A DNA stretch of 64,000 bases from Desmonostoc muscorum LEGE 12446 (GTDB lineage Bacteria > Cyanobacteriota > Cyanobacteriia > Cyanobacteriales > Nostocaceae). This document shows, piece by piece, positions 3,124 to 40,920 of the stretch. Below the pieces are notes generated by a model. The model had not been told where the DNA came from, did no database searches, and saw nothing but the letters and a program-made list of their open reading frames with translations. Position 1 is the first letter of the stretch. The number at the start of each line of letters is the position of its first letter. The stretch spans positions 7,153,001-7,217,000 of the forward strand of contig NZ_JADEXS020000001.1 of the NCBI RefSeq assembly GCF_015207005.2, in the 5' to 3' direction. The translations under genes and the position numbers were made by a program.

Positions 3124-6100
3124 TTACGAGTAATTAAAGTAACTATTAGTTAGATTCAACCCTGTTTGAGCATCGATAAGAGCAATCAATTCATCGGGTT
3201 CGGTTCCTGGTTTATCTCTAAATAGCTGGGTATTGGAACCGGAGAGAACTAAACGATAATCAGTACTTACACCTCGAAGTTGAATGATGTCTTCACTGGT
3301 ATTAAAGTCAGTAAGTCTAGCGTAGCTATCTGTTCCCGCAGTTAGGACATTATTGTCATCGTAAAAGACTGTATTTGTATCTCCTAAAACAAAGCGATCG
3401 CGTCCTAAACCTCCTGTTAAGATATCTATTTGACTTAAACTGGGGCTAGCTCCACCTCCATTGAGAGTATCATTACCTGCACCACCTCGGAGAGTATCGC
3501 TGAGGTTTCCTCCCCTCAAGTTATCTGCTTGTGAGGTGCCAAGAATATCAAATTGTTCAATATTGAAGTAGGAGATAGTACTATCCCCTGCGGAAATGGT
3601 GCCACTGCCATTAGCGCCCACAGTGGTAGAAATGCCAGCAGTAGTAATGGTAGAGTAGTCAACCTTGAGTAAATCAGTTTCTGTGCCGCCATCTACATAA
3701 TCAGCACCGAGTCCGGGATCTAAGGTATCATTGCCTTCTTCGCCCCGCAATCCAGCGAAGTAATTAATGGCGAAGAGTTCACCAGGATCGATGATAAAGT
3801 TAGCGTTACTGTCGATGAAGACATATTCTGTATAGAGAAAGGTATCTCTGTCATTGCCAGAGCCGCCTTTGAGGTAGTCGTTTCCTTCCCCGGCGTACAA
3901 ACCATCTGAGCCACCATCACCAGAGAGACTATCATTACCTACCCCACCAAAGATCAGATCGTTCTCGGCTTGCCCTGATACGGTATCATTGCCCGTATCA
4001 CCATAAATGCGGTCTTTGCCACTGCCACTGATAATGTTATCGTTGCCATCTCCGCCTTCTATGATATCTTGCCGAGTGGTAGCACTGAAATTCAGAACAT
4101 CGTTGCCACTGCCAGATTTGAAGTAAATAGATTCGATATCTTTGAAGTTGACATCGTTTAAAACTGCAAAGACACTAGCATTGGTGTAAGTAACAGTGAA
4201 GTTAGTAGTGATGGTATTGCCTGAACGGTCTAATTCTAGAGTATCAATGCCATTGCCGCCGATAATTGTATCGGCTCCTTCGGCGGGATTGAAATAGTCA
4301 TCACCTTCTCCCCCTAAGAGGCTATCATTCCCTGCACCTCCGTAAAGACTATCGTTGCCTTCACCGCCTAAGAGGGTATCATTACCTGCCTCTCCATAAA
4401 GTTTATCGTTGCCTGCTTGCCCTAAGAGACTATCCTGACCAAGACCACCTCTAAAATCTTCATTTCCCACACTACCAGAGATGGTGTCATTGCCATCTCT
4501 GCCTTCGACATAGTTATTGCCAATGGCTGCACTTAAATTCAGGTTATCATTGCCACTTCCAGATAACAGACTAATGGTTTCTATTTCTTTGAAGGTGGTA
4601 TCGGCAATGGTAGCAAAGACATTGACATTAGTGTAGTTTAGTGTTAATGCAACAGACTGATCGGAATGGTCTAAATCGAGAAGGTCTGAGCCAGTCCCTC
4701 CCAAGACAGTATCGGCTCCTTCTTCTGGCTTGAGATAGTCATCGCCTTCTCCACCTAAGAGGCTATCATTGTCTGTACCTGCGTAAAGGGAATCATTACC
4801 TGCACCGCCTAAGAGGGTATCATTACCTGCCTCTCCATAAAGCTTATCGTTGCCTGCTTGCCCTAAGAGACTATCCTGACCAAGACCACCTCTAAATTCT
4901 TCATTTCCGACACTTCCTGAAATGGTGTCATTTCCGTTTCTGCCTTCGACATAGTTATTGCCAATGGCTGCACTTAAATTGAGATTATCATTGCCACTGC
5001 CCGACAACAGACGGATGGTTTCAACTTGTCTAAAGGTGCTATCAGCAATGGTAGCAAAGACATTAAGATCAACATAACTCAGGGTTAAGGAAGTCGATAA
5101 ATCAGAATGATCTAATTCGAGGTAATCTGAACCTGTTCCCCCAACAATAGTATCTGCTCCTGTGCCTGGTCTTAAAGTGTCGTTGCCGTCACCCCCGTCG
5201 AGGCTATCAATGCCTGAACCACCATCAAGATCGTCATTGCCATCTTCGCCTAAAAGGGTGTCGTTACCAGCTCCGCCATAAAGTCCACCGTAGCGGCTAG
5301 TGCCCAAAAGACCCAAATAGGTGCTATCGTTATCATCTCCAGTACCACCTCTAAGCAAATCATCGCCATCATCGCCATAGAGTCCATCAGTGCTGGCTCC
5401 TCCTGTGACGGTATCGTTGCCAATTCCCGCCAAAATTAAATCGTTACTGATGCCTGTGGTGATGTTGTCGTTACCCGCTCCGCCTTGGACAGTGTTATTG
5501 CCAATGGCTGCACTGATATTCAGGCTGTCATTGCCACTGCCGGAAATCAGGTTGATGACTTCTATTTCTTTGAATGGTACGCCGCCTGTAGCGAAAATGT
5601 TGGCGTCGGTGTAGCTGACAGTAAAGTTAGTTGTGCCACCACCATTGTCTAAATACAGGGTGTCATAACCTGAACCGCCAATAACTGTATCTAGTCCACC
5701 GCCAAGGTCGAGATAGTCATTGCCCGCTCCACCATCAAGGCTATCATTACCTGCTCCGCCGTAGAGATCGTCATTGCCATCTTCGCCTAAAAGGGTGTCG
5801 TTACCTGAACCGCCATAAAGTCCACCGTAGCGACTAGTGCCCAAAAGACCCAAATAGGTGCTATCGTTATCATCTCCAGTACCACCTCTAAGCAAATCAT
5901 CGCCATCATCGCCATAGAGTCCATCAGTGCTGGCTCCTCCTGTGACGGTATCGTTGCCAATTCCCGCCAAAATTAAATCGTTACTGATGCCTGTGGTGAT
6001 GTTGTCGTTACCCGCTCCGCCTTGGACAGTGTTATTGCCAATGGCTGCACTGATATTCAGGCTGTCATTGCCACTGCCGGAAATCAGGTTGATGACTTCT

Positions 6101-8670: not shown

Positions 8671-8751
8671 AAAATAAATTTCTTAGGTAAAAGGACTAAG
8701 TAACCAGAACTAAGTGGTATACTTAAGTAGTTTGTAGTAGAGTATATCTTA

Positions 8752-8796
8752 GTATTTCAAAAACACATATAAAACTCATCTTAATTTTTGAAATAC
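8752..8796. promoter_or_regulatory. 12-bp perfect inverted repeat in a divergent promoter region
   Basis: GTATTTCAAAAA (8752-8763) and TTTTTGAAATAC (8785-8796) are perfectly complementary, 21 bases apart, in the spacer between the RTX gene (leftward) and the GNAT gene (rightward). It could be an operator or an mRNA stem-loop. The rest of the 286-bp spacer is AT-rich with no other clear feature. Confidence 0.35.
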
Positions 8797-8956
8797 ACCT
8801 AGCTAGAGCACCAAAATCTTGGACTGGTGTGCTAAGCAAGGGCTAACACAATCTAAATATACTGAATTGACATTGGCGTAATTTGACATTTGGTGAAGAT
8901 GCAAATCATCAAACACGCTTTTTGGCACAATTACCAATAATTACCCAACTACAGCT

Positions 8957-9424
8957 TTGTCTAAACCTGTAATCACTGTTCGCCTAATTGCACGCCACGA
9001 ACTTCCCCAACTTCTGGCGTTGTATCAGCATCTCAATCCCATTGATGCACCTCTACCTGCTGACGACGTGTTACAGTCCATTTGGGATAAAATTCTCGGC
9101 GATCCACATTTATATTACATAGTTGCCGACATTGGTGGTGAGTTAGTCGCTACATGTAACTTAACCATTGTTCCCAACCTGACACGGGGCACACGTCCAT
9201 ACGGCATTATCGAAAATGTTGTCACCCACTCCGATTATCGACGACAGGAATTTGGTACACGAGTGCTGCATTATGCTTTGGATTTAGCATGGCAGCAACA
9301 GTGTTACAAAGTGATGCTTTTGACTAGCTCAAAAAGTGAGGAGACGTTGCGCTTCTATGAACGCGCAGGGTTCAAGCGTGGAGTAAAAACCGGATTTATT
9401 GCCCAGCCTCCAGAGGAGTTGTGA
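8957..9424 (+). CDS. GNAT-family N-acetyltransferase
   Basis: 155 codons. It has the GNAT fold: the beta4 strand plus acetyl-CoA loop (IIENVVTHSDYRRQEFGTRVL, with R/Q-x-x-G-x-R/A at the pyrophosphate loop) and the C-terminal FYERAGFKRG motif. Such enzymes transfer acetyl from acetyl-CoA to an amine; the substrate cannot be told. There is no ATG upstream within the open frame (an in-frame TGA lies at 8894), so TTG at 8957 is the only good start. It stands alone, divergent from the RTX gene. Confidence 0.85.
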   Translation: MSKPVITVRLIARHELPQLLALYQHLNPIDAPLPADDVLQSIWDKILGDPHLYYIVADIGGELVATCNLTIVPNLTRGTRPYGIIENVVTHSDYRRQEFGTRVLHYALDLAWQQQCYKVMLLTSSKSEETLRFYERAGFKRGVKTGFIAQPPEEL

Positions 9425-9532
9425 GTAGAACTGATACGTGTTAGAGAGATTATTTATTTATATTTTTTTATTGTAGAAAATTAGTTATTTAGTCTACTAT
9501 TTTTTTGGGGAAGGTAGCAAGTTATATATTGG

Positions 9533-11851
9533 ATGGGTGCGATGAGAATCTTGCTAATCGAAGATGAAGAAGTTTTAGCAAGTGTCTTGTTGAAGTCTCT
9601 GACTAAACAACACTATGTTGTGGATGTAGCACAAGACGGGCAAATGGGTTGGGAATACACTCAAAATGCTAGCTACGATCTGCTGCTCATAGATGTAGGA
9701 TTGCCGAAACTGGACGGGATTACATTGTGTCAGCGATTGCGTTATGGTGGGTGTTTCACTCCGATTCTGTTGATGACGGCGAAAGATGGTACTCAAGAGC
9801 GGATTCAGGGACTTGATGCAGGTGCGGACGATTATCTGATTAAGCCTTTGGATTTGGGAGAATTGCAAGCAAGAATACGGGCGCTGTTACGTCGTGGCGA
9901 TCGCCCCGTTACCCCCATACTAGAAGTAGGCGCACTCCGACTAGATCCCAGTAGTTGCGAAGTCACCTATAACAACAAACTAATAGAATTAACCGCCAAA
10001 GAATACAGTCTGCTGGAGCTATTTCTGAGGAATCCATCGCGTGTTTTTAGTCGCGGGGATATCATTGAGCATTTGTGGACTTTTGACGATCCACCCCAAG
10101 AGGAGACTGTAAAATCACATATTAAATACTTACGGCAAAAGTTGAAAGCAGCCGGAGCAGTAGATTGGATTGAAAACGTTTATGGTTTGGGATATCGGCT
10201 GAATCCTGGAAGAGAGCAGGGGAGGCAGGGGAGGCAGGGGGAGCAGGGGAGGAAAGAAAAATTTATCCCCAATCCTCATGTTGAGGAGCAGTTTCAGCAA
10301 GCGATGGGTGGTTTGTGGAAACAATATGAAGGGTTGATGGTGCAGCGGTTGGCGGTGCTGGAAGAATTAGCAGCAGCAGTTTCTAGCAAAACTCTGACTC
10401 AGGAGTTACACAAATCCGCAGAACGAGAGGCGCACAAATTAGCTGGTGTCTTGGGGATGTTTGAACAAGACAATGGTACTCAAATAGCGCGGGAAATTGA
10501 ACAGATTTTAGGCAAAGATGGTGATTTGTCTGTAGATGAAAAGCGGCAATTGCTGAGGCTGATTGAAGATTTGGGTAAGTTAATTAATCAAATGGGGCAA
10601 AAGGTAGACGATCAAAATAATAGTGCGATCGCCCCAGAAATTTGTAGTCAATTAATATTAATCGACTCTAATCCCCAAGTAGGTTCTCAATTGCAACAAC
10701 TCGTTGAATGCATGGGAATGTGTTGGCAGCAAATTACAAACATAGAGGATGCAAAAAACTTTTTGCAAACCATATCCCCAGATTTAGTAGTCATAAATGT
10801 AGATGAGGCAGGGTGCCGCCAAGAAAGTTTATCACTGCTGTCAGAATTAGCAACCCGTACCCCACCCGTACCCGTGCTGGTGCTGGCTGGGAATGATGAG
10901 TTGGTAGAACGCGTGACTTTTGCTCAGTGCGGCGCACGGGGTTTTCTAGCCAAACCTGTAACAGCTGCTCAGGTGTGGGATGTTTCGTCTCAACTATTAC
11001 AACGTACTCGTTCTCTGCGGGTAAATATATTGGCAGTAGATGACGATCCCCTGATTTTAGCAGCACTGCGCCCAATGTTAGAACCTTGGGGTATGCGGAT
11101 GACGGCATTGGACAATCCGTTACGTTTCTGGGAGGTGCTGCAATCTACGACACCGGATTTGGTGATTTTAGATGTAGATATGCCGCAAATTAGCGGTATT
11201 GAACTTTGTCAAGCAGTTCGTACTGATCCCCAATGGCAAGAATTACCGATTGTGTTTCTCACTGCTCATCGAGAAATCAAAATTGTACAGCAGGTGTTTG
11301 CTGTGGGGGGAGATGATTATGTAATTAAACCTGTGGTTGGGGCAGAATTGTTAGCACGTATTACCCATCGCCTAGAACGCAGCCGTTTACTTCAGTCTCT
11401 TTCTACGAAAGATCCTTTAACTGGAGTAGCGAATCAGTTTCAGTCTCGCCGCAATTTAGAACATTTGATTACTCAAGCCGAGAAAAATCAGCAATCTGTT
11501 TGTTTGGCGATTTTGAGTGTGAATGATTTGCGCCAAATTAATATTAAATATGGTCATGAAGCTGGTAATCAAGTATTACAAAGATGGAGTCGTTTATTTC
11601 AATCAGCATTTTGCAGTGGTGAAGTGTTAGGTTATTGGGGTAACGGAGATTTTGTCGTGGGAGTTTCTGGGTTAACAAAACCAGAAATTAACCATCGCCT
11701 GAGTGAGATTTTAACTACTTTACGCCAGCAAATATTCACAGCTTTTGATGGCGATCGCTTTCAGGTAATATGTAATTTTGCTGTAGTGGAATATCCCAGT
11801 GATGGGCTAACGCTCCAATCTTTATATCAAGCTGCCGTTGGGCATAATTAA
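9533..11851 (+). CDS. Multidomain response regulator: Rec-winged helix-Hpt-Rec-Rec-degenerate GGDEF
   Basis: 772 codons; an ATG at 9542 is an alternative start. Order: OmpR-type receiver (residues 4-120, D54, K104), OmpR/PhoB DNA-binding winged helix (~128-224), a Gly/Gln-rich linker (226-242), an Hpt-like helical bundle with AHKLAGVLG (H301), a second receiver (~372-490) where the phospho-acceptor position is Asn422, a third receiver (497-615, D547, K599), and a GGDEF-like domain (625-772) whose signature is GNGDF rather than GGDEF, so cyclase activity is unlikely. The combination suggests a phosphorelay hub that also binds DNA. The linker is encoded by a G-rich repeat of spacer type (see 10205-10250). 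No kinase is adjacent; the frameshifted hybrid kinase starts 2.2 kb downstream. Confidence 0.88.
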   Translation: MGAMRILLIEDEEVLASVLLKSLTKQHYVVDVAQDGQMGWEYTQNASYDLLLIDVGLPKLDGITLCQRLRYGGCFTPILLMTAKDGTQERIQGLDAGADDYLIKPLDLGELQARIRALLRRGDRPVTPILEVGALRLDPSSCEVTYNNKLIELTAKEYSLLELFLRNPSRVFSRGDIIEHLWTFDDPPQEETVKSHIKYLRQKLKAAGAVDWIENVYGLGYRLNPGREQGRQGRQGEQGRKEKFIPNPHVEEQFQQAMGGLWKQYEGLMVQRLAVLEELAAAVSSKTLTQELHKSAEREAHKLAGVLGMFEQDNGTQIAREIEQILGKDGDLSVDEKRQLLRLIEDLGKLINQMGQKVDDQNNSAIAPEICSQLILIDSNPQVGSQLQQLVECMGMCWQQITNIEDAKNFLQTISPDLVVINVDEAGCRQESLSLLSELATRTPPVPVLVLAGNDELVERVTFAQCGARGFLAKPVTAAQVWDVSSQLLQRTRSLRVNILAVDDDPLILAALRPMLEPWGMRMTALDNPLRFWEVLQSTTPDLVILDVDMPQISGIELCQAVRTDPQWQELPIVFLTAHREIKIVQQVFAVGGDDYVIKPVVGAELLARITHRLERSRLLQSLSTKDPLTGVANQFQSRRNLEHLITQAEKNQQSVCLAILSVNDLRQINIKYGHEAGNQVLQRWSRLFQSAFCSGEVLGYWGNGDFVVGVSGLTKPEINHRLSEILTTLRQQIFTAFDGDRFQVICNFAVVEYPSDGLTLQSLYQAAVGHN
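10205..10250 (+). repeat. GCAGGGGAG-type repeat inside the response regulator gene
   Basis: Units of roughly AGGCAGGGG/GAGCAGGGG repeat four times and encode an EQGRQGRQGEQGR linker between the winged helix and the Hpt domain. The same kind of sequence occurs, in complement, in the spacer at 13763-13803, so a non-coding repeat has become an interdomain linker. Confidence 0.75.
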
Positions 11852-11976
11852 TAGACCTCTTGCAAAAGTCCCCTAACACCCCACCCCCAGCCCCTCCCCG
11901 CTCGCGGGGAGGGGAGACTTTGACGTAAGTCAAAGGCGGGGTGGGGTTCTTTTTTTTGATTTATGCAAGAAGTCTA
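11852..11976. mobile_element. MITE-like element, TAGACYTCTTGCA family, copy 1
   Basis: The ends TAGACCTCTTGCAAAA and, inverted, TAGACTTCTTGCATAA match at 14 of 16 positions. The 125-bp interior is a strong C-rich/G-rich hairpin with a CCCCGCTCGCGGGG core and a second GACTTTGACGTAAGTCAAAG stem. It begins at the stop of the response regulator and may act as its terminator. Related ends occur at 52391-52483 and a single end at 48461-48480. No coding capacity. Confidence 0.65.
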
Positions 11977-12164
11977 ATAAATATATTATTGAATTCGTCC
12001 CTTGAAAACAGATGTATATCAATCACCGTAAAAGTTTGGAGTTTTGCACTGGGAACTAGACTAAAGTCGATAGCGATCGCATTTCCACAAATTGTAAAAT
12101 TTTCTAGTTGAAAATGCCTCAAAGTAGAAATCAGGGCTTTACCCAGCAATGGAGAAAGGGTGAG

Positions 12165-13673
12165 ATGAACAATTACACCTTTGGGCGTAAGAAAGCAGGT
12201 ACATCATTTTCAAATCCATCCCTTGTCTCACCAAATACTCCGACCCTGGCGAACCCAATACGTGGCTTTGGTTTACCAACGAATAATATCCAAACAGCAA
12301 CCTCAGAGTCAAACAACCTTGAAGAAACCCAGGTTGCTGACGGGGAATCCTTGAAAGCCATTGAGCAACCGTCTTTTGGTCACGACATTAGTCGCATAGC
12401 GTTGCGTCGTCCCCAGGCAAAACTGACGGTGGGAGAACCAGGGGACAAGTATGAGCAGGAAGCAGATTGGATGGCAAATCAGGTGATGCGGATGGTTGTG
12501 CCAGACAAACTTAACGCTGCTAGCGTAAAGCCTGTACAAAATTCCTTGCAGCGCAAATGTGCAGCCTGTGAGGAGGAAGAAGAGAAAGTAGAAACTAAGC
12601 CATCCATACAATTGGCTACTGATAAAGGTTTACAAGTCGGAGATAATATTGAGAGTCCCTCAGGCCTTATTATTCAGTGCAAAAAGGAAAATGAGGAAAC
12701 TCTGGCAGCCATTCAGGGACACGCAATGTTCAATCTCCTGCCTCGGTTGCAGGCTTTGCCAGAAGATGTTCGTAACGATGAGCAGGCTGGCGGATTTGTA
12801 GGAGGACCACGGCTAGTCACTGCTATGCGAGTTGTAAGAGAGAAGGGAAAACCTTGGCTGGACTTCGTTGCTGCTCACAACGGTGAATTGGCTGCCTTGC
12901 CTAGTGACCAAATTGCAGACGTTATGAGCTTTCTTGGTGCGCCCAAAGAAGCTCGATACTTTAAATCCGATCTGTTCGATGGACGTTTTGATGGTGCAGT
13001 AGATCCAGATGCAGGCGTTGTCACTCTCTTCTTTCGCGTGAGGTTTGAGGTAGAAAGTGCTAAGTTTGGCACAGCATCCCCTGGCACGCCTAACTGGGAA
13101 AAAGAAACTCAGGCTGGCCTTCAACAGTTCAAGGCTGACTTTAAGCAAGTCGTTGAGGAAACTTGGTCGGGGAAGGGATCGGTACGACCTACTTGTCCTG
13201 TTGGTTCCATCAAGGCACTTCAAACTAAGGTTGTTGTTAGTGTTGTCGATAGCGGCGAACACAAGTTAATACACATCTTCTCAGATGTAGGAGAAGGCCG
13301 CTCTAACATGGGCCAAGAAGGCAACTTAAAAGTCAACGATAATAAGCCAAGAACAGAGACGAAGCAGGTAGTCGATCCAACAGGACGCCACCCAGAGCAG
13401 GCAACAAATACACAAATCACTTCGGCTCACGAGTTTGGTCACGCTATTGGTTTGTCACACCCCCGCTGTCCTGGTGGAGACGATAACTGTTATGGTGTGA
13501 CTGCTGAGGAGCGGCGCGATGTCATGGGGGGTGGTGACAAGCTCCAAGTAATCAAGCGGGCTGGCAAAATCGTCCATGATGACTTTCAACCGTTCGAGCG
13601 CATTGCTGAGCAATGGGGCAAAGATATTTTCCCAGGGGCATTAGCCCATTGCAATAAATGGTCGGCTGGATAG
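12165..13673 (+). CDS. Metzincin-type metalloprotease with DUF4157-like (injection-system cargo) leader
   Basis: About 502 aa. The start at 12165 (MNNYTFGRKK) is chosen because GAGAAAGGGTGAG lies directly upstream and because it matches the usual N terminus of this cyanobacterial family; the open frame extends back to 12108. Numbering from 12108: residues 40-65 carry PNTPTLANPIRGFGLPTNN, residues 106-127 carry LTVGEPGDKYEQEADWMANQ, and CAAC followed by a glutamate run lies at 151-159. These are hallmarks of proteins with the DUF4157 region found on cargo of extracellular contractile injection systems. The C-terminal part has the full metzincin motif HEFGHAIGLSH (441-451) and a Met-turn-like DVMG (471-474), so three His should bind zinc. 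No signal peptide. No injection-system structural genes are in the window. Substrate unknown. Confidence 0.8.
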   Translation: MNNYTFGRKKAGTSFSNPSLVSPNTPTLANPIRGFGLPTNNIQTATSESNNLEETQVADGESLKAIEQPSFGHDISRIALRRPQAKLTVGEPGDKYEQEADWMANQVMRMVVPDKLNAASVKPVQNSLQRKCAACEEEEEKVETKPSIQLATDKGLQVGDNIESPSGLIIQCKKENEETLAAIQGHAMFNLLPRLQALPEDVRNDEQAGGFVGGPRLVTAMRVVREKGKPWLDFVAAHNGELAALPSDQIADVMSFLGAPKEARYFKSDLFDGRFDGAVDPDAGVVTLFFRVRFEVESAKFGTASPGTPNWEKETQAGLQQFKADFKQVVEETWSGKGSVRPTCPVGSIKALQTKVVVSVVDSGEHKLIHIFSDVGEGRSNMGQEGNLKVNDNKPRTETKQVVDPTGRHPEQATNTQITSAHEFGHAIGLSHPRCPGGDDNCYGVTAEERRDVMGGGDKLQVIKRAGKIVHDDFQPFERIAEQWGKDIFPGALAHCNKWSAG

Positions 13674-14091
13674 AATGCAATACTGCGTAGGTTTTGGAAT
13701 TTCTTGGTTGAGGCAAGCTGTTCAATAGCCGGGGGAGAAATGGAAGCTGGCGTTGAGTTTTGCCTCCCCTGCCTCCCCTGCTTCCCCTGCTTCCCCTGCT
13801 TATCCGAGCAGTATTGGGATAGAATAATTAGGTTTTTTTCTCACGCAGAGGCGCAGCGGAGGTTTCCGAGCATCAGAACTTTCCAAGACACAGCCGCCCA
13901 GAGGAAGTGAAATTTGCTGTGAGTTCCGGAAAATTTGAAGGTAATGTGTAGTTTTACTGTAGTCGAATATTCCAGTCCTGGAGTAACGATACAATCGCTA
14001 TACAGATTTATTAGTATCATCAACAGCACATGATTATTAATTTGTAAAGGATTGAACTGATAATTATTACTGATTATTTGAAGGGGAGTCG
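13674..14091. other. Spacer with TGCCTCCCC/TTCCCC repeat and no supported gene
   Basis: 418 bp. Positions 13763-13803 hold a short tandem C-rich repeat (CTCCCCTGC and TTCCCCTGC units), the complement of the repeat inside the response regulator at 10205-10250. The stretch around 13830-13920 (TTTCTCACGCAGAGGCGCAG) resembles a dispersed cyanobacterial spacer sequence. A short GGGGAG sits close to the following ATG at 14092 and could be its ribosome binding site. Confidence 0.6.
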
Positions 14092-17000
14092 TTGATGAGT
14101 AGACAACAGCTAGAGCAGGTAGAGCAATTGCAAGTCACCGTGAACAAGATGCAAGTCACACTGGATGCGATCGCTGATGCTGTAGTCTGGGTAGGAGAAG
14201 ACCAACTCATTCAATGGTGCAATTCTAGTTTTGCATTTCTGGTTAACCAAGCCCACGGTAGTCTCTGCGGCTTGAGGTTCACTGATTTGCTACCCTTAAC
14301 CCAGGCTGGAAAGTTAGTTGCTTTACCCCGCTATCCACATGTGCGGCTACTGAATGGGGAGTATGAAACAACAAATTATCAGTTGCAGCAGGGCGATCGC
14401 ACTTTAACATTACAAATTTCTGGTAGCTGCATCGGATTGAGTGGCGATCGCTGTGCAATACTGGTAATTCGAGATATCACTGAAACAAAACAAGCTCAAG
14501 AATCTTTGCAAGAGATTGAGGAGCGGTTGCAGACATTAATTAACGCTACACCCGATATTATCTGTTTAAAAGACGGCGAGGGAAAATGGTTGCTGTCAAA
14601 CCAAGCTAACCTCGAATTTTTAGAACTACAAGGCGTTGATTATCGAGGCAAAACTGACTCAGAACTGGCCGAATTTACCGATTTTTATCACGATGCTTTG
14701 CTTTATTGCAGCAAAACAGATGAACAATCTTGGCAGTTTGGATCTGTGCATCGGGTAGAAGAAATTATACCGCGACCTGATGGAACAATGAGCAGTTTAG
14801 ATATGATTAAAGCTCCTCTGTTTCACCAGGATGGTAGACGCAAGGCAATACTTGTTTTGGGGCGCGATATTACAGACCGCAAAAAAACCCAAATAGCTCT
14901 AGAAAATTCTTTATCTTTGTTAAATGCTATCTTTGAATCAATTCAAGATGGTATCTTAGTAGTCAATACTTCTAGTAATATAACTAGTTTCAATCAAAAG
15001 TTCTTAGAAATGTGGTCAATTCCACCAGAACTTTTGACGGAACCAGATCATCCCCGACGGCTAGCGCATCTGGCAAACCAACTAAAAGACCCCGATGGAT
15101 TTTTACAACGCGTCCGAGAATTATACCAAAACCCGGAAGTAGTTAGTTACGATTCCTTAGAACTGCGGGATGGCAGAATATTTGAGCGTTACTCCTGTCC
15201 TCAACGCGTCGGCGAACAAATTATTGGTAGAGTCTGGAGTTTCCGCGATGTTACTCAACGCCAAAGATCTGAAGAAGCACTGCGACAAAGTGAGTTGCAA
15301 TACCGCAGTATTTTTGAAGCTATCAATGATGGACTATTTATTACTGAAATAGAAACTGAAACAGTTGCCGAGATTAATCCTGCTGCTTGCCAGATGCACG
15401 GTTATACCTACGAAGAATTTATGGCTTTGCATCCATCTGTTTATATTCACCCAGATTCACATTCTGTTTTCCATGAATTTGTAGAGAAAACACGAGCTGG
15501 TGAGCAATTTGATGGACAAGCAGTTGATATCTGCAAAGATGGCACTTTAATCGATGTGGAAGTCAAAGGAACGACTTGCATTTATAATGGCAAGCGTCAT
15601 ATTTTAGCAATTGTGCGGGATATAACTGCTCGCAAACGCACCCAGGAAGCCTTACGCCAAAGGGAAGCACAATATCGTGATTTGGTGCAAACAGCGAACT
15701 GCATCATTCTGCGTTGGGATAGCAATGGTGACATTATATTTTTAAATGACTACGGTCAAAGGCTGTTTGGTTTCGATGTAGATGAAATTACAGGACGCAA
15801 TGTTGTCGGTACAATTGTTCCAGAAACCGAAACTTCTGGACGTGATTTGCAGGCGTTAATGGTGGATATTTGCCTGTACCCAGAAAACTATCTATTTAAC
15901 GAAAACGAGAATTTGTGCAAAAATGGCGATCGCGTTTGGATAGTCTGGGCGAATAAACCCATTTTAGATGAACAAGGAAACTTAATCGAGATTCTTTCAG
16001 TGGGCACCGATGCCACAGAACGCAAACGCGCCCAAGCAGCCCTGCAAGAAAGTGAGTTAAAATTCCGCAGCATCGTGGAAAATGCCAATGATTTGATATT
16101 TGTCCTGTCGCCAGAGGGAATTTTTACTTATCACTCGCCGAATGTCACGGCAATTATGGGTTACAGCTTGCAGGAAATTGAAGGTCATTCTGTGGTAGAG
16201 TTTACCAAACCTGAAGATTTACCAACTAGCGCCGCCGCCTTACAAAGGGCGATGACTGGCGAAAAGCTGACTAATATTGAAGTGCGATTGCGACACAAAG
16301 ACAACAGTTGGCGATGGTTTAATTTTAATACTTCAACAATTAATACTTCTAGTGGTGAAATTGCGATCGCAGGTGTGGGACGCGATATCACAGAACGCAA
16401 GCAAGCAGAAGAAGCTTTGCGTCGTAGTGAAATGAAGTACCGCAACATCTTTGAGAATTCCCAAGTGGGGATTTTTCGCACTCGTCCCGAAGATGGCTTA
16501 ATTCTTGATGCTAACGATCGCGGTGCAAATATCCTGGGTTTTGCCTATGCTTCTGACTTAATTGCCAAGTATTTTATCACTGATTTATATGTAAATCCCA
16601 GCGAACGGGCATCGATTTTAAAACAGGTAGAAGAGTACGGCGAAGTATGCAACTTTGAAGTCGCAATGCGTCGCCTGGATGGTTCTTTGGTTTGGCTATT
16701 GTTGTCACTGCGCCTCAACTCTGAAGAATCTTGTCTCGATTGCGTATTTACAGATATTAGCGAACGGCAAGCCGCGCTGCGCGAACGCAAACAAGCAGAA
16801 GCCGCCCTCCAGCAAAGCGAGTTAAAGTTTCGCACTATCGTTGAAAAAGTCAATGACGTGCTTTTTGTTGTCACTCCTGATGGTGTTTTCAACTATATTT
16901 CCCCAAATATCTTGAAGACTACCGGATTTGCCCCCAGCGAAATGGAGGGTAATTCCTTGGCATTGTTTACTCATCCTGATGATGTGCCAAAATGTCTAGA

Positions 17001-18333
17001 AGTAGCCCAAACTATCCTGGCAACAGGCGAGGGAATTTCCGATACTGAATACCGCGCCAAACACCGAACTAAAGGCTGGGTTTGGCTAACTTCTAATGCA
17101 GTCCGCACACAAGATGCCCAGGGTAACTATCAGATTGTTGGCGTAGCTCGTGATATTAGCGATCGCAAACTAGCAGAAGCAGCCCTACAACGTCGTACCC
17201 AAGCAGAAAGTTTAATTAGTAGCATATCTCGGCAATTTATTGACCAAGATTTAGAAACAGCAATTAATTTTACACTGCGAGCGATCGCTCAATTTATTGA
17301 TGTTGAACACAGTTGTATATTTGAATGTTCCAACGATCAACAAGAATTTAACCTCATCCATGAATGGTGTGGTGAAGATGTTCCACCATTGATTGATATA
17401 GCCAGAGGTTCGCCCGTGGAAGTTTTCCCCTATTTCTACGAGCCGATTCTCCGTGGTAGACATCGCCAAATCTCTCGTGTGGAAGAACTACCCCCCCATC
17501 TACCTGAGCGACAATTGTTTGAAACCATGTCCTTTCAATCTTTACTCGCTGTGCCCATGCTTCATGCTGGCAGAGTCGTTGGGTTTGTTGGTGCAGCGAT
17601 GATTCATTATACCAAAACCTGGAACCAAGAAGATATTAATTTATTGAAACTCGTAGGTGAAATAATAGCGATCGGTCGAGCCAGACATCAAGCAGAAGAA
17701 GCCCTGAGAATTGCCAAAGAAGCAGCCGAAACCGCCAACCGAGCCAAAAGCGCTTTTTTGGCTAACATGAGTCACGAACTCCGTACCCCTTTAAATGCGA
17801 TTCTCGGCTTTTCCCAATTAATGGAACGAGACACCAGCCTCAACTCGAATCAGCGTGAATCTTTAACTACCATTAACCGTAGTGGAGAACACTTGTTAAA
17901 CCTGATTAACGATGTCTTAGAAATGTCCAAAATTGAAGCCGGACAAATCATTTTCAACCCCGAAGACTTCGACCTTTATTTTTTGTTGCAAACATTACAA
18001 GAAATGTTCCAGGTGCGGACACAAGCAAAGCAACTATTCCTCAACTTTGAAATGTCCCCCAATCTCCCCCGCTACATCCAAACAGATGTAGGTAAACTCC
18101 GCCAAGTCCTGATTAACCTTTTGGGTAACGCCGTCAAGTTTACTCAAACTGGCGGGGTAACGTTGCGGGTGAGGTTAGGGAATGGGGAGTGGGGAGTAGG
18201 GAGTAGGGGAGGTGTGGGAGGTGTGGGAGGTAAGGGAGGAGAGGGAGGAGGGGGAAGTATAAATTCTCTTTCTCCCCCACTCCCCACACTCCCCCCACTC
18301 CCCACTCCCCACTCCCCACTCCCCATTCCCTAA
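14092..18333 (+). CDS. Eight-PAS/GAF hybrid histidine kinase, N-terminal part, interrupted in the ATPase domain
   Basis: 1413 codons. A short coiled start is followed by eight PAS domains beginning near residues 10, 133, 268, 394, 517, 650, 775 and 905, a GAF domain (~1030-1195), HisKA with NMSHELRTPLNAILGF (H1228 is the phospho-acceptor) and the first half of the HATPase including the N box (LRQVLINLLGNAVKF). It then runs into a palindromic repeat, reads as Gly/Trp- then Pro-rich filler, and stops at 18331. The G boxes and receiver continue in another frame (18333-19277). As it stands the kinase lacks the ATP-lid and should be inactive. No membrane segment is visible, so it is probably cytosolic. 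Ligands of the PAS domains are unknown. Confidence 0.88.
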   Translation: MMSRQQLEQVEQLQVTVNKMQVTLDAIADAVVWVGEDQLIQWCNSSFAFLVNQAHGSLCGLRFTDLLPLTQAGKLVALPRYPHVRLLNGEYETTNYQLQQGDRTLTLQISGSCIGLSGDRCAILVIRDITETKQAQESLQEIEERLQTLINATPDIICLKDGEGKWLLSNQANLEFLELQGVDYRGKTDSELAEFTDFYHDALLYCSKTDEQSWQFGSVHRVEEIIPRPDGTMSSLDMIKAPLFHQDGRRKAILVLGRDITDRKKTQIALENSLSLLNAIFESIQDGILVVNTSSNITSFNQKFLEMWSIPPELLTEPDHPRRLAHLANQLKDPDGFLQRVRELYQNPEVVSYDSLELRDGRIFERYSCPQRVGEQIIGRVWSFRDVTQRQRSEEALRQSELQYRSIFEAINDGLFITEIETETVAEINPAACQMHGYTYEEFMALHPSVYIHPDSHSVFHEFVEKTRAGEQFDGQAVDICKDGTLIDVEVKGTTCIYNGKRHILAIVRDITARKRTQEALRQREAQYRDLVQTANCIILRWDSNGDIIFLNDYGQRLFGFDVDEITGRNVVGTIVPETETSGRDLQALMVDICLYPENYLFNENENLCKNGDRVWIVWANKPILDEQGNLIEILSVGTDATERKRAQAALQESELKFRSIVENANDLIFVLSPEGIFTYHSPNVTAIMGYSLQEIEGHSVVEFTKPEDLPTSAAALQRAMTGEKLTNIEVRLRHKDNSWRWFNFNTSTINTSSGEIAIAGVGRDITERKQAEEALRRSEMKYRNIFENSQVGIFRTRPEDGLILDANDRGANILGFAYASDLIAKYFITDLYVNPSERASILKQVEEYGEVCNFEVAMRRLDGSLVWLLLSLRLNSEESCLDCVFTDISERQAALRERKQAEAALQQSELKFRTIVEKVNDVLFVVTPDGVFNYISPNILKTTGFAPSEMEGNSLALFTHPDDVPKCLEVAQTILATGEGISDTEYRAKHRTKGWVWLTSNAVRTQDAQGNYQIVGVARDISDRKLAEAALQRRTQAESLISSISRQFIDQDLETAINFTLRAIAQFIDVEHSCIFECSNDQQEFNLIHEWCGEDVPPLIDIARGSPVEVFPYFYEPILRGRHRQISRVEELPPHLPERQLFETMSFQSLLAVPMLHAGRVVGFVGAAMIHYTKTWNQEDINLLKLVGEIIAIGRARHQAEEALRIAKEAAETANRAKSAFLANMSHELRTPLNAILGFSQLMERDTSLNSNQRESLTTINRSGEHLLNLINDVLEMSKIEAGQIIFNPEDFDLYFLLQTLQEMFQVRTQAKQLFLNFEMSPNLPRYIQTDVGKLRQVLINLLGNAVKFTQTGGVTLRVRLGNGEWGVGSRGGVGGVGGKGGEGGGGSINSLSPPLPTLPPLPTPHSPLPIP
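18175..18333. repeat. Palindromic heptamer-repeat element inserted in the kinase gene
   Basis: Two perfect 22-bp arms (18175-18196, starting TTAGGGAATGGGGAG, and 18312-18333, ending CCCCATTCCCTAA) enclose G-rich then C-rich tandem repeats. The right half contains four consecutive CCCCACT heptamers (18293-18320) plus CCCCATT. Removing 18178-18332 (155 bp) joins GTGAGGTTA to ATCTTTGAA and restores an ordinary VRLIFEIEDTG reading, so this is an insertion into an ancestral intact gene. The element resembles the spacer element at 40803-40920. Confidence 0.85.
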
Positions 18334-18377
18334 TCTTTGAAATCGAAGACACTGGACGGGGAATAGCACCAGAAGAA

Positions 18378-19277
18378 ATGAATAACTTGTTTCAGCCTTT
18401 TGTGCAGACAACAAGCGGTATCCAAACTAAGGAGGGAACTGGGCTAGGATTAACAATTAGCCGCCAGTTTGTGCGATTGTTGGGGGGCGACATCCACATT
18501 ACCAGCAGCCCTGGGCAAGGATCTACTTTTAGCTTTGACATCCAAGTGAATTTAGTAGCAGCGTTAAAAGCTACACCCAAGTTAAGTAAAGGGCGCGTAA
18601 TTAAACTGGCAGCCAACCAACCAGATTATCGGATTCTGGTAGTAGATGACCGCAAAGAAAACTGTGACTTAATTGTGCAACTGCTTGGAAGTGTTGGTTT
18701 TACTACCAAAACGGCTAATAATGGACAACAAGCGATCGCAATTTGGCAAAATTGGCAACCCCACCTCATTTGGATGGATATGCGGATGCCTGTGATGAAC
18801 GGCTATGATGCAACTAAAGAAATTAGAGCCAGAGAAAGAAATACAGATGTCAATCATAGTACTGTAATTATTGCTCTAACTGCCAGTGCTTTTGAAGAAC
18901 AACAAGCAAGTATCTTAGCCGCAGGTTGTGACGACTTAGTTCGTAAGCCATTCCGGGAACAAGTGATTTTTGAAAAGATGGCTGAATACTTGCAGGTGGA
19001 TTATATCTATGCAGAAGAAAGCAGTGAAAATGCCACATATAAAAAGCCAGATAATGTTCAATCTCCCATTTTGGATCTTCACTCTGCAATTCAGGTTATG
19101 CCTGTTCAATGGATAGCAGAATTAAATCAAGCAGCCATTGAAGTCGATGCCGAGCGAATTTTCCAACTAATTGAGCAAATTGAGCCAACTCAGTCTCACT
19201 TAGCAGCAGAACTAGCAAATTTAGTTCGTAACTTCTGCTTCGATGAAATTATTGATATTAGCTTACAGGTGGAGTAA
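18378..19277 (+). CDS. Displaced C-terminal part of the hybrid kinase: G boxes plus receiver
   Basis: The frame is open from 18234 and reads kinase sequence from 18333 (IFEIEDTGRGIAPEE), i.e. the G1 box, then FQPF, GTGLGLTISRQFVRLLGGDI (G2) and GSTFSFDI. A receiver follows (YRILVVDDRKEN, phospho-acceptor in LIWMDMRMP, LVRKPF), then ~90 residues without a recognised domain. ATG at 18378 lies inside the ATPase, so independent translation would not give a sensible domain; this is the tail of the gene starting at 14092, shifted by one base. A net gain of one base (or one 7-bp repeat unit) would reunite them into about 1730 residues. Confidence 0.85.
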   Translation: MNNLFQPFVQTTSGIQTKEGTGLGLTISRQFVRLLGGDIHITSSPGQGSTFSFDIQVNLVAALKATPKLSKGRVIKLAANQPDYRILVVDDRKENCDLIVQLLGSVGFTTKTANNGQQAIAIWQNWQPHLIWMDMRMPVMNGYDATKEIRARERNTDVNHSTVIIALTASAFEEQQASILAAGCDDLVRKPFREQVIFEKMAEYLQVDYIYAEESSENATYKKPDNVQSPILDLHSAIQVMPVQWIAELNQAAIEVDAERIFQLIEQIEPTQSHLAAELANLVRNFCFDEIIDISLQVE

Positions 19278-19339
19278 ATAATATCGCGATCGGTTGAGTA
19301 CTTACAGCAAATTGCAACAGGCGTGATGTACAGATAATC

Positions 19340-19367
19340 GTAGGGGCACAACATGTTGTGCCCCTAC
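19340..19367. repeat. GTAGGGGCACA palindrome (28 bp), copy 1
   Basis: A perfect palindrome, GTAGGGGCACAACA followed by its complement. Variants occur at 37776-37803, 44021-44049, 50928-50955 and 62205-62232, mostly at the ends of genes. The remaining part of the 19278-19463 spacer shows no gene. Confidence 0.8.
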
Positions 19368-19463
19368 CCGTGTACGTGTCCCTCATTCAAATGAAAATCG
19401 CTATATGCAATTAGTTTTGAGGTGGGATGTGCGATCGCCAAGGTGCAGTACAATAAAGCTACT

Positions 19464-28014: not shown

Positions 28015-31000
28015 GTGGTCAAACAGCACCGACGTGATTGGTTAAAAGCTGTGAAATTTTGCCGCGAAAGAAAATTCCTAGCACTGTTGCTAGGGATTTT
28101 ATTCTCAATTTCCGTAATCTTACTGTGGCAAAAACTCCCGTTGCCAATCACTGAGTCCTTAGCAGAATTTGCAATGATTACCGGGTTATTTGTTGCTGGG
28201 TTATTGGTTACCAGCACCGTGACATTATCAATTTATTTCGCCCTAGTAACGAAAGCCAGTAACCAAAAGATAGCAGCAATAAATCAGGAGTTAACTCAGA
28301 GAATTTTTGAACAACAACAGGTAGAAATTACCCTCCGCACCAATGAAAATCGTCTGCGGCAGCTGTTGGAAACTGTCAAAGTCATTCCTTGGGAATTAGA
28401 CTTGAAAACTGGGCGATTTATCTACGTTGGGTCGCAAGCGGTAAACTTACTAAATTATCCCATCGCCCAGTGGTACGAGGAAAACTTTTGGGTCAATCAT
28501 CTACATCCACACGACCGAGAAAAATCAGTTCGTTTTTGTCAACAGGCAACTGCTAGGTGCGAAAATCACGAATTAGAATACCGAATGCTAGCAAGCGACG
28601 GGCGAGTTGTTTGGCTGCGACACATTGTGACGGTAGTTCACGAAGCCGGAACTCCTACAATGCTCAGGGGATTTATGTTTGACATTACTGATTTGAAGCT
28701 GGTGGAAGAAACCTTGAGGCTCAGGGAGAGGGCGCTTGCTGCTACTAATAATGGAATTATTATTGCTGATGCCAGGCTTGCATATAATCCGGTTATTTAT
28801 GTCAACCCTGCCTTTGAGCGGATAACAGGTTATAGTACCACAGATGTGATTGGGCAGAACTGTAGATTTTTGCAAGGCACAGATACCGAACAACCAGCAC
28901 TCGAACAACTGCGGTCATCCATTAAAGCGGGAACAAGTTGTAAAGTGGTTCTCCGCAATTATCGCAAAGATGGCATGTTGTTTTGGAATGAATTGAGTAT
29001 TTCTCCTATCCATGATGAAAATGGCAAATTAAGTCACTTCATTGGCATTCAGACAGATATTAGCGATGTCTACGACGAACTTCGCTTACGCAAACTTGCC
29101 GAAGCCCGTCTGCGTCACCAAGCCCTCACCTTTGAAAACATGCACGATGGCGTGATGATCACAGATTTAACAGGAAGTATCATTGATTGGAATCCAGCTG
29201 CTGAAAGCATGTTTGGCTATACCAAAGCCGAGGTTTTAGGTAAAACTCCAAGTATTTTACATAAATCTGAAGAAGCCGCAGGATTAAGTGCCAAAGTTCT
29301 CCAAACAATCAACCAGCAAGGACGCTGGTCAGGAGAAATACATTTTATTCGCAAAGATGGTAGTGAGGGAATTTGCGAAACAACTGTAGCATCTTTACAG
29401 GATGAACAGGGACAAACTGTTGCCACTATTAGTGTCAATCACGACATTACCGAAAACAAACAAGCTAAAGAGGCATTGCAGAGGCAATTACATCGAACTT
29501 TATTACTCGAACAAATTACTCAAGAAATTCGTCAAAGTTTGGACACCAGCAAAATTTTTGAGACGGCTGCTACTCAAATTGGACAAGCATTTAGAGTCGA
29601 TCGCTGTTTAATTCATTCTTACATTAATGACTCCATTCCCCTAATTCCCCTAGTAGCAGAGTATAATGTGCCTCCCGGTCACTGCTCGATATCCAACTTG
29701 GAAGTTTTAATAACTAACAATCCCCATGCTGAGCAGATGATGGCACAAGAAAGTGCGATCGCCTCCCCAAATGTCTACGTTGATGCTTTACTTCAGGGGG
29801 CTGAGTCTACCTGCCAAGAAATCGGGCTGAAATCCATGCTCTGTGTCCGTACCTCTTATCAAGGAGAACCAAATGGTGCTATAATTCTTCACCAATGTAG
29901 CCATTTTCGCCAGTGGACACAAGACGAAATTGAATTAGTAGAAGCAGTGGCAGCTCAGTTGGGTATTGCTTTAGCACAAGCTCAATTACTAGAACAAGAA
30001 ACCCGCCAACGTCAAGAACTCACCTTGAAAAACTTTGCCTTGGAGCGAGCAAAACGCCAGGCAGAAGCCGCAAATCTAGCAAAAAGTGAGTTTTTGGCGA
30101 TGATGAGCCACGAAATTCGTACTCCCATGAATGCGGTTATTGCCATGACAGGTCTGCTGTTGGATACGGACCTGACGCCCCAACAACAAGACTTTGTGGA
30201 AACAGTCCGCAGTAGTGGAGATGCTTTGCTCACCATCATCAACGACATTCTAGATTTCTCCAAAATTGAATCGGGGAAGTTGGAATTAGAAGAACAGCCT
30301 TTTGATTTGAGAGCTTGTGTGGAACAGGCCATCTACCTTTTAGCCCCGAAAGCCGCCCAAAAAGATATCGAATTAGCTTACCTGATCGAGCCGCAAGTTC
30401 CCACTTACATCATCGGCGATTTAACACGTCTGCGCCAAGTCTTGATGAATCTGCTCAACAATGCCATCAAGTTTACTGAAAACGGAGAAGTGGTACTTTC
30501 TGTTGGACTAGGGACTGGGAATCGGGGATTGGGGACTGGCGATCGGGGATTGGGGACTGGGAACCGGGGATTGGGGACTGGGAATTTAACTCAAGAAACT
30601 TCTTCCCAATCCCCAGTCCCTAGTACCCAATCCCCAGTCCCTAGTACCCAGTCCCCAGTCCCTAGTACCCAGTCCCCAGTCCCTAGTACCCAGTCCCCAG
30701 TCCCTAGTACCCAATCCCCAGTCCCTAGTACCCAGTCCCCAGTCCCTAGTACCCAGTCCCCAGTACCCAGTCCCCAGTCCCCAGTCCCTAGTACCCAGTC
30801 CCCAGTCCCTAGTACCCAGTCCCCAGTCCCTAGTACCCAGTCCCCAGTCCCTAGTACCCAGTCCCCAGTCCCTAGTACCCAATCCCCAGTCCAAATTCAA
30901 TTTGCCATCAAAGATACAGGTATTGGCATTGCACCAGAAAAAATAGAACGGTTATTTCAACCCTTTACTCAGGGTGATGCTTCCATGACTAGACGATATG

Positions 31001-32472
31001 GCGGTACAGGACTGGGACTGGTAATTAGCAAGCGGCTCAGTCAGATGATGGGCGGTACCCTTTGGGTAGAAAGTCAGGGGTTTGTTGGTGGCGATCCCGG
31101 CTCCACATGGAAAAGTAAAAAATTATCATCTTCTTACCTTTCCCAAGGTTCAACATTCTACTTCACCATTAAAGCCCAAGTAGCTGCTATGGCAGAACAA
31201 GCTGAATTTAGCAGTTTGCTAGTGCAGCTGGCCCGAAAGCGGCTGTTGATTGTAGATGACAATCTCACCAACCGCACAATTGTTAGCTTGCAAGCAGAGT
31301 CTTGGAAGATGCAAACTTATGCTGCCAAATCTGGTAAAGAAGCTTTAGCTCAACTTGCTCAGGGAGCGCAGTTTGATATTGCCATTTTGGATATGCAGAT
31401 GCCAGAAATGGATGGTCTCACCCTGGCTCGTCAAATCCGCAAGCAATCTGGCTTTTCAAATCTGCCTTTGGTGATGCTGACCCCTTTGGGTAAACTAGAA
31501 ACCTCCCTCGATTTTGGTGATGTGCAGTTTGCTGCCTCTTTGAGCAAACCAATTAAACAGTCTCAACTCTACGATGTTTTTACCCGTGTTTTGGGTAATC
31601 AGCCGATTCGGGCTAGTATTTCTCATTCTCATTCTCCCTTGGTCGATCCGCATTTGGCACATCGATCGCCACTGCGGATTCTTTTAGCAGAGGACACGGT
31701 TGTTAATCAGAAAGTTGCTCTATTAATGCTACAAAAAATGAGTTATCAGGCAGATGTAGTAACCAATGGGCTAGAAGTGTTGAAAGCTTTGCAAAAACAG
31801 CCCTATGACGTAGTGTTAATGGATATCCACATGCCCGAAATGGATGGGTTGGAAGCAACTCGGAGAATTTGTCAACAATGGGAAGTTGGTTTTCGTCCCT
31901 ATATCATTGCGATCACTGCTAATGCCATGCGGGGCGATCGCGAAGCTTGTCTGGCTGCTGGGATGAATGACTACATTAGTAAACCTGTTCAGCTGGAAGA
32001 GTTAGCCCAAGCACTCAGCAAATGCCCACCTCAAAGAAGTAAACAAGACCTGGTAATGTCTGGGGAATTGCAACCTCCGGCCAATATCCTCCAGGAAAAC
32101 CCAAACCCGACATTCTATAGTGCCAATATTGATGCCAAAACTCTCAAATCCTTGCGGAATATACTCAGAGGAGATCGTGCTGCATTTGCAGAACTAATTG
32201 AGTGTTATCTTACAGAAACTCCCAGACTGGTACAAAATATCAGCACAGCGATCGCTACTGAAGATGCCCAGACTCTATGGAAGACAGCACACCAACTCAA
32301 ATCCAGTAGCGCCTCTGTAGGGGCGATGACCCTGGCGCAACTTTGCAGGCAATTAGAAGCACAAGGACGGAGCAACAAATTACAAACCAGCCTAGACGCC
32401 ATATCACAACTACACCAAGAATATGAACAAGTTAAAACTGCCTTACAAAAAGAACTTGCCAAGGAAGCATAA
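28015..32472 (+). CDS. Membrane-anchored LOV/PAS/GAF hybrid histidine kinase with two receivers and Hpt
   Basis: 1485 aa from a GTG with GGAGG seven bases upstream. Two membrane helices (~21-40 and 54-78), PAS (~112-228), a LOV-type PAS (~238-350) with GQNCRFLQG, where C283 sits at the flavin-adduct position, a third PAS (~366-485), GAF (~498-655), HisKA ([14 protein letters not shown]699), HATPase (N box [15 protein letters not shown] to GGTGLGL), receiver 1 ([15 protein letters not shown]), receiver 2 ([15 protein letters not shown]) and a C-terminal Hpt ([13 protein letters not shown]). Residues ~831-967 are an in-frame repeat insertion between the N and G1 boxes. The stop overlaps the following cyclase start (TAATG), so blue light may feed into c-di-GMP signalling; that link is inferred. 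Confidence 0.92.
30508..30893. repeat. In-frame heptamer/21-bp repeat array inside the kinase ATPase domain
   Basis: The left part has G-rich units (GGGACTGGGAATCGGGGATT, encoding GLGTGNR) and the right part about 13 C-rich units of 21 bp (CAGTCCCCAGTCCCTAGTAC plus C, encoding QSPVPST). 21 bp equals three CCCCAGT-type heptamers, so copy changes by whole units preserve the frame. The two halves are complementary, giving a large imperfect hairpin with ends near TTGGACT. The heptamers are of the CCCCART class known from heterocystous cyanobacteria. Confidence 0.9.
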
Positions 32473-40802: not shown

Positions 40803-40920
40803 AGGTGGGGAGTAGGGAGTGGGGAGTAGGGAGTCAGGAAAGAATTTTTATAGAGTTGTTACAACTTATCTCCCTCATCCCCCTCATCCCCCTCATCTCC
40901 CCACTCCCCACTCCCCACTC
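40803..40920. repeat. Palindromic GGGGAGT / CCCCACT heptamer element in a spacer
   Basis: GGTGGGGAGTAGGGAGTGGG on the left faces CTCCCCACTCCCCACTCCCC on the right, with CCCTCATCCCCCTCATCC in between. It is the same type as the element inside the kinase gene at 18175-18333 and abuts the stop codon of the aldo/keto reductase gene. Confidence 0.75.

Follow-up and report, generated by a model that had tools for sequence, protein, structure and literature searches.

The 64,000-nucleotide stretch of DNA analysed here, called the window (positions 7153001 to 7217000 of contig C1, in a genome of 9,635,616 bases), contains a hybrid histidine kinase gene that is read in two different frames, and the change of frame is at a palindromic array of short repeats. 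The question raised by this locus is whether the gene is dead, whether it is one phase of a switch set by the number of repeat units, as an earlier note on this DNA had proposed, or whether the split has another origin. Two relatives are referred to throughout: Nostoc sp. FACHB-973 (G014; locus L061), which belongs to the same species as this genome, and Nostoc calcicola FACHB-3891 (G001; locus L062). The coordinates of the features are collected in Table 1.

Table 1. Features of the split kinase, of its array and of the other array-bearing kinases, with positions counted within the window.
Feature	Position	Strand	Basis
Hybrid kinase, upstream part: PAS domains, GAF, HisKA and start of HATPase_c	14092..18333	+	ORF and Pfam
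Downstream frame: remaining HATPase_c and receiver; first ATG ORF 18378-19277, 299 aa	18234..19277	+	ORF and Pfam
Palindromic short-repeat array in HATPase_c, at a beta-hairpin turn; its outer arms are 18172-18208 and 18300-18336	18172..18338 (about)	+	repeat and fold analysis
Nonamers of the 3' arm; the frame diverges here from that of G014 and G001	18272..18292	+	comparison with G014 and G001
Four consecutive CCCCACT heptamers	18293..18320	+	sequence reading
Second hybrid kinase, with an array of its own at this turn and the frame kept across it	28015..32472	+	domain search and locus comparison
Repeat array in the second kinase: G-rich 5' arm (30511-30586) followed by a 21-bp unit ~13.7 times (30605-30892)	30511..30892	+	
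Repeat-bearing kinases: both window kinases, L176-L181, L183, L184, L210, L212, L232, L233, L235, L237 and L241			

The gene and the array at its break

Open reading frames and Pfam domains agree with the earlier note in that the kinase is split at the repeat between the frames 1 and 0 modulo 3. The upstream frame has its codon starts at 1 modulo 3 and its stop at 18331, the frame 0 modulo 3 is stop-free over the whole downstream part, and both are stop-free in the overlap (18234-18330, ~97 bases). The PAS, GAF and HisKA domains are located 5' of the break, and HATPase_c (profile positions 36-108) and the receiver 3' of it. All the domains of a hybrid histidine kinase (HisKA, HATPase_c and receiver) are present, but in two frames in this genome, and relatives show the same domains in one open frame, for example of 1723 aa in FACHB-973. 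The arithmetic by which one heptamer equals 1 modulo 3, with both frames open over the array, is also correct.

The array shows a G-rich part followed by a C-rich part, and the two form a palindrome whose outer arms, of 37 nt, are 92% complementary. Its DNA fold has a z of -8.5, and none of 200 dinucleotide shuffles is equally stable. Sequence, arms and fold thus confirm a palindromic repeat with four consecutive CCCCACT units; its description as an array of heptamers holds for these units, but the 3' arm is a mixture of nonamers and heptamers, and the heptamer part is not where the length departs from that of the open relatives. The 19-nt pattern CCCCACTCCCCACTCCCCA, of the CCCCACT type, has 302 exact matches in this genome, and its reversed control has none; the corresponding counts are 504 in FACHB-973 and 73 in FACHB-3891. 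Pattern counts therefore show 7-bp G-rich/C-rich units dispersed genome-wide, as expected of cyanobacterial G-rich heptamers, and the element is a short-repeat array of a G-rich/C-rich repeat family dispersed through this genome, palindromic in this strain. The first 30 pattern loci contain 19 array places, and four of the 19 are flanked on each side by at least 60 residues of open frame.

Within HATPase_c, the array falls in the beta-hairpin turn that separates the N box from the G1 box, and the loop it encodes is tolerated by the fold. In an AlphaFold2 model of the FACHB-973 protein (L061 5901-7400; 34 sequences, mean pLDDT 77.9, pTM 0.50), the array-encoded residues 166-191 show pLDDT below 50 and lie between strands 155-162 and 195-203; in this prediction the array encodes a hairpin-turn loop that is probably disordered. 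The structure 6qrj (listed as Hybrid kinase), which we take to be ShkA, has about 4 residues between the matched stretches at this turn.

Other repeats are present in the window. A nonamer array, GCAGGGGAG, is found at 10216-10252, in frame inside a response regulator/Hpt/GGDEF protein (9533-11851), and an intergenic nonamer array at 13761-13801, where FACHB-973 has one 9-bp unit fewer. A short palindrome, GTAGGGGCACAACATGTTGTGCCCCTAC, lies just 3' of the kinase at 19341-19368, and 40805-40921 contains another array of the GGGGAGT/CTCCCCA family.

Orthologues and the origin of the split

Orthologues were searched for in 53 genomes of the genus, using the downstream 311 residues as query. Matches of at least 81% identity were found in 27 of the 53, this genome included, one match being in two pieces. 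The loop is complete in 24 of those genomes (this genome and 23 relatives), and the contigs of G027, G029 and G030 break off within the array or next to it. Three orthologues were added from a named collection: L076 of Amazonocrinis nigriterrae, L078 of Nostoc sp. 106C and L080 of Nostoc carneum; loci L058-L060, with ~50% identity, were left out before counting. All 26 orthologues with a complete loop show variable sequence at the same HATPase_c turn, between the strands TLRV and FEIEDTG; the array is thus not an insertion peculiar to this strain, and a fresh insertion interrupting the gene was rejected. The 24 loops compared are all different from each other, and a unit repeated exactly in tandem, twice or more, was found in 21 of the 24 tested, including this genome (G009, G026 and G043 show none). 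Other cyanobacteria, at 47-59% identity, often show a shorter turn or one of different sequence, and some of their turns are long too.

The distance between a conserved DNA anchor and FEIEDTG takes 19 values among 27 alleles and is 0 modulo 3 in 26 of them; the exception is this genome (209). Since the anchor was sought irrespective of frame, the frame count is a real test, and frame-blind change would give in-frame alleles in about one third. The alleles are related by descent, with nearly one genome per species and two of this species, and no probability was put on the 26 of 27, because of this relatedness and because the frame is kept partly by 9- or 21-base units; such units keep the frame by themselves, so that the conservation of frame is weaker as proof of selection. 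The earlier note had set two outcomes against a switch: a length constant in every relative, which is not what the 19 values show, and orthologues intact without the element beside further decay of this strain, which is contradicted in both halves.

Strong palindromes are found in a minority of the orthologues: five of the 24 have an arm-score z of at least 3.7 and four of the 24 a fold z below -5. Across species the arms covary (own arm 36.6, foreign arms 31.6), and 2 of 20000 permutations reach as high a value; the covariation is driven by a few near-perfect palindromes, and the own arm ranks best in five of the 24.

Several draft genomes simply end at the array. The 343-aa protein P0002, from a 36.6-kb contig, begins inside such an array, which may mean either that the contig ends there or that this allele is split too. 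Among the 27 complete alleles, the draft ends and P0002, the only established split allele is that of this genome. A supposed reciprocal split in FACHB-973 (contig C60) was rejected, as the contig itself ends 36 bases upstream of the match. The draft contigs of loci L044, L051, L055, L283 and L289 end in or beside such arrays. Drafts ending at arrays make split kinases in drafts suspect.

The centre of the array is common to this genome, FACHB-973 and FACHB-3891, and the two halves can therefore be compared separately. The 5' half differs from that of FACHB-973 by 51 bases (0 modulo 3). The 3' half is one base shorter than in FACHB-973, in the nonamer part, and FACHB-3891 agrees with FACHB-973 there. 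The CCCCACT tract has the same length in the split allele and in the open allele of FACHB-973, and a heptamer counter was rejected as the cause of the present split, since the tract is equal in open and split alleles of the same species. Outside the array, no indel relative to FACHB-973 was found in 14092-19277, and FACHB-3891 shows three frame-keeping gaps (15, 273 and 174 bases) against both others. Between this genome and FACHB-973, dN and dS are 0.0064 and 0.066 in the upstream part and 0.0055 and 0.057 in the downstream part (dN/dS ~0.1 on both sides of the break), and the branch of this genome has six synonymous changes and one nonsynonymous change in the downstream part. With no other indel and this dN/dS, the gene has been constrained until very recently, or still is; no sign of decay was found in this comparison, which supports the suggestion of the earlier note that the gene is not dead.

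The three genomes with CCCCACT at this locus form one clade and have the highest pattern counts of the 24 genomes with a complete loop (504, 302 and 73; the next has 61). High counts of the CCCCACT pattern are also found in genomes that do not have this orthologue: 330 in G044, 233 in G033 and 210 in G013, for example. The idea that the unit type of the locus follows the dominant repeat of the genome failed for the 8-mer CCCCTCTG (11 in G015, 14 in G016 and 24 in this genome, G000).

The reading preferred here, to which a probability of about 0.72 is given, is that a hypervariable coding repeat is held in frame by selection and that this genome shows a sporadic one-base frameshift, with no setting of a heptamer counter. 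The arrays would change through slippage, through template switching between the inverted arms and through exchange with copies elsewhere in the genome, and selection would usually remove the cells in which the frame is lost. The 3' arm of this strain is one base short, which parts the gene into a piece with PAS, GAF and HisKA and a piece with the ATPase end and the receiver. The shortened C run of this arm matches the run of five Gs in the 5' arm, a likeness that may have come from quasipalindrome template switching, and the inner hairpin has -13.5 kcal/mol here and -12.0 kcal/mol in FACHB-3891, a small difference and a weak basis for template switching. The split is recent, transient, or an error of sequencing or assembly.

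An error of the assembly or its consensus, with the base present in the cell and the gene intact, appears unlikely. The difference is known from the assembly only, and a single base in a C-rich run of a repeat could be such an error; every other complete allele is open, and another array kinase of this genome, L184, shows two unusual length differences close together, both of which suit an error. It is opposed by the 15 other array kinases of the same assembly, which are plainly in frame, and by the few frameshifting gaps in the blocks aligned to FACHB-973. In one orientation relative to contig C221 of FACHB-973, the blocks 9453-11853 and 11982-19304 show no frameshifting ORF indel outside the array, and gaps are found in a repeat block (5177-5422, 74% identity) and at the edge of the block 8294-9457. 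The inverted orientation gives 21298 aligned bases, 18282 of them in ORFs of at least 120 residues, and three frameshifting gaps were flagged: two cancel 3 bases apart and one is near the edge of a stop-to-stop frame, at a distance of ~29 bases. With so few flagged gaps a general indel error is unlikely, although an error could still lie inside the C-rich repeat. The kinase regions 11982-19304 and 26870-49201 are in opposite relative orientation in contig C221, and a rearrangement between them therefore separates the two genomes.

Ribosomal frameshifting, which would bridge the split so that some full-length protein is made, is very improbable. The two frames are open together for ~97 bases, and the CCCCCCA run at 18291-18297 is, by the register rule for -1 slip sites, in a register fit for such a slip. 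However, FACHB-973 reads the same run in another register, so that there is no conserved signal, and the strong hairpin pairs with the upstream arm and not with downstream sequence.

The same turn in other kinases

A profile search gives 154 HATPase_c matches in this genome, nearly all of them listed. The turn was read for 112 of these, namely both window kinases, the 30 loci with the best match and 80 selected for an incomplete or long match. In the 110 loci, a motif script read 67, nine incomplete ones were printed whole, and a model from the rest found the domain in 110 of 110. The remaining listed matches span at most ~342 bases for a nearly full profile and are thus too short for a long insert. 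Among the 112 turns, read by eye, about 17 kinases show repeat-derived sequence: 15 are plainly in frame, one is the split gene and one is L184. In 14 loci the turn region is 13 to 35 residues in excess, and no G/C array was found there, although a piece of some other repeat may be present in L239.

The array of the second kinase of the window has a 21-bp unit made of three heptamers. All 29 complete alleles of this kinase are in frame. The count covers the 30 orthologues for which a locus was obtained, the thirtieth being G030, whose sequence starts at the array; there are more matches that have no locus, and some of these are partial. The distance from NNAIKFT to the hit ranges from 105 to 441 bases in the 29 alleles, and in this strain the array is longer than in FACHB-973, of the same species, by 210 bases, that is, 10 x 21 bp.

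A third kinase (C1 about 421,100; L179, L293, L294) shows three unit types in this genome, FACHB-973 and FACHB-3891, and its downstream protein is 98% (FACHB-973) and 93% (FACHB-3891) identical. Three unit types in proteins so alike indicate that slippage alone is insufficient. A broader proposal can be made tentatively, and is doubtful as yet: filamentous cyanobacteria may have a standing diversification system, with short-repeat arrays, often inverted-armed, at one beta-hairpin turn in the ATPase domains of many histidine kinases. Strains of the same species would come to differ wholesale in unit type as the arrays undergo ectopic template switching with copies dispersed in the genome, and single kinases of the signalling repertoire would thereby be altered and now and then switched off.

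In L184 (C1 about 5,279,970; L297, G000:C1 about 5279900-5280000) the net length of the array is off by 2 modulo 3 relative to FACHB-3891, and ~35 bases past the array a one-base difference from FACHB-973 and FACHB-3891 restores the frame; through this compensating difference the conserved VTDTG (G1 box) is replaced by other residues. L184 bears on phase variation, in which the array would be a reversible on/off switch of the kinase, set by heptamer number or by any net length, and caught here in its off state. That off-frame states arise is indicated by the frame-shifting net length of L184 and its nearby compensation, and the long, repetitive array of the split gene, the 51 bases by which its 5' half differs between two genomes of one species and the otherwise undecayed gene also suit a switch. 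Compensation at a second site would hardly be needed, however, if arrays flipped back readily; open alleles make up 26 of 27 in the split kinase and 29 of 29 in the second, the heptamer tract is equal in open and split alleles, and phase variation was thought unlikely for this repeat family, in the part of the article available, by the authors who described GGGGA(C/T)T heptamers in Nostoc sp. PCC 7120 (Rehm et al., 2015; PMC4692102). A switch thus appears quite unlikely. What stands of the slippage switch proposed earlier is that the array sets the frame and is hypervariable among relatives; the number of CCCCACT units as its setting does not.

Under the preferred reading of a coding repeat held in frame with one sporadic frameshift, a supposed broken gene becomes a comparative system: one turn, in many kinases and species, with coding repeats that change fast and yet stay in frame. 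Its natural sequences allow the mutation of G-rich inverted repeats to be measured, and also how far the ATPase hairpin can lengthen. Kinases split at such arrays should be checked before they are named pseudogenes or switches, and draft assemblies break at such arrays.

Comparison with known systems

In the simple-sequence contingency loci of Haemophilus, Neisseria and others, the length of a tandem repeat inside an ORF sets the frame. The array resembles them in this property and differs in that nearly all alleles sampled are in frame, the units are mixed and the differing base is outside the heptamer tract. Repeat number does not separate on from off alleles here, the tract being equal in both, and on and off alleles are not both common in this sample. 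Small dispersed repeats were reportedly treated by Elhai and are mentioned in PMC3116915, and Mazel (1990) is cited in PMC2670836; PMC3116915 and PMC4907049 have no direct bearing on the array. By title or abstract, none of the papers retrieved deals with repeat arrays at this kinase turn.

Quasipalindrome-associated template-switch mutation has been described in E. coli (PMC7202029), and template switching in coding genes of yeast (PMC8604942), as far as the available parts of these articles go. The likeness is in an imperfect inverted repeat that is a mutation hot spot and whose arms become more alike; unlike in those systems, template switching is suggested here by one difference and a weak covariation of the arms.

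The Rickettsia palindromic elements (RPE), in the available text of PMC10969869, are ~150-bp palindromic repeats that lie within ORFs, keep the frame and suit the protein fold. The arrays resemble them in part: those of the two kinases lie within ORFs, at a turn that tolerates them, and keep the frame in 26 of 27 complete alleles of the split kinase and in 29 of 29 of the second, but a strong palindrome is present in a minority of the orthologues. RPE families each have a conserved peptide and are found in unrelated genes, whereas here the unit types vary at one site of paralogous kinases; no conserved encoded peptide was found in the 24 loops, which all differ and have widely different unit types.

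A further close family is that of the cyanobacterial heptamer repeats (STRR), G-rich/C-rich 7-bp units that are dispersed in the genome and partly intragenic, and whose hairpins have been reported in filamentous cyanobacteria in the part of PMC2670836 available. In the text available of Rehm et al. (2015), 68% of the repeats of Nostoc are intergenic, with a sizeable intragenic share, and few paired repeats of PCC 7120 are able to form inverted repeats. The unit AGTGGGG of the present array is close to, and not identical with, the GGGGA(C/T)T of that article. That text names no fixed protein site, whereas the arrays described here are found at one structural turn of many kinases, some of them with inverted arms, and in frame.
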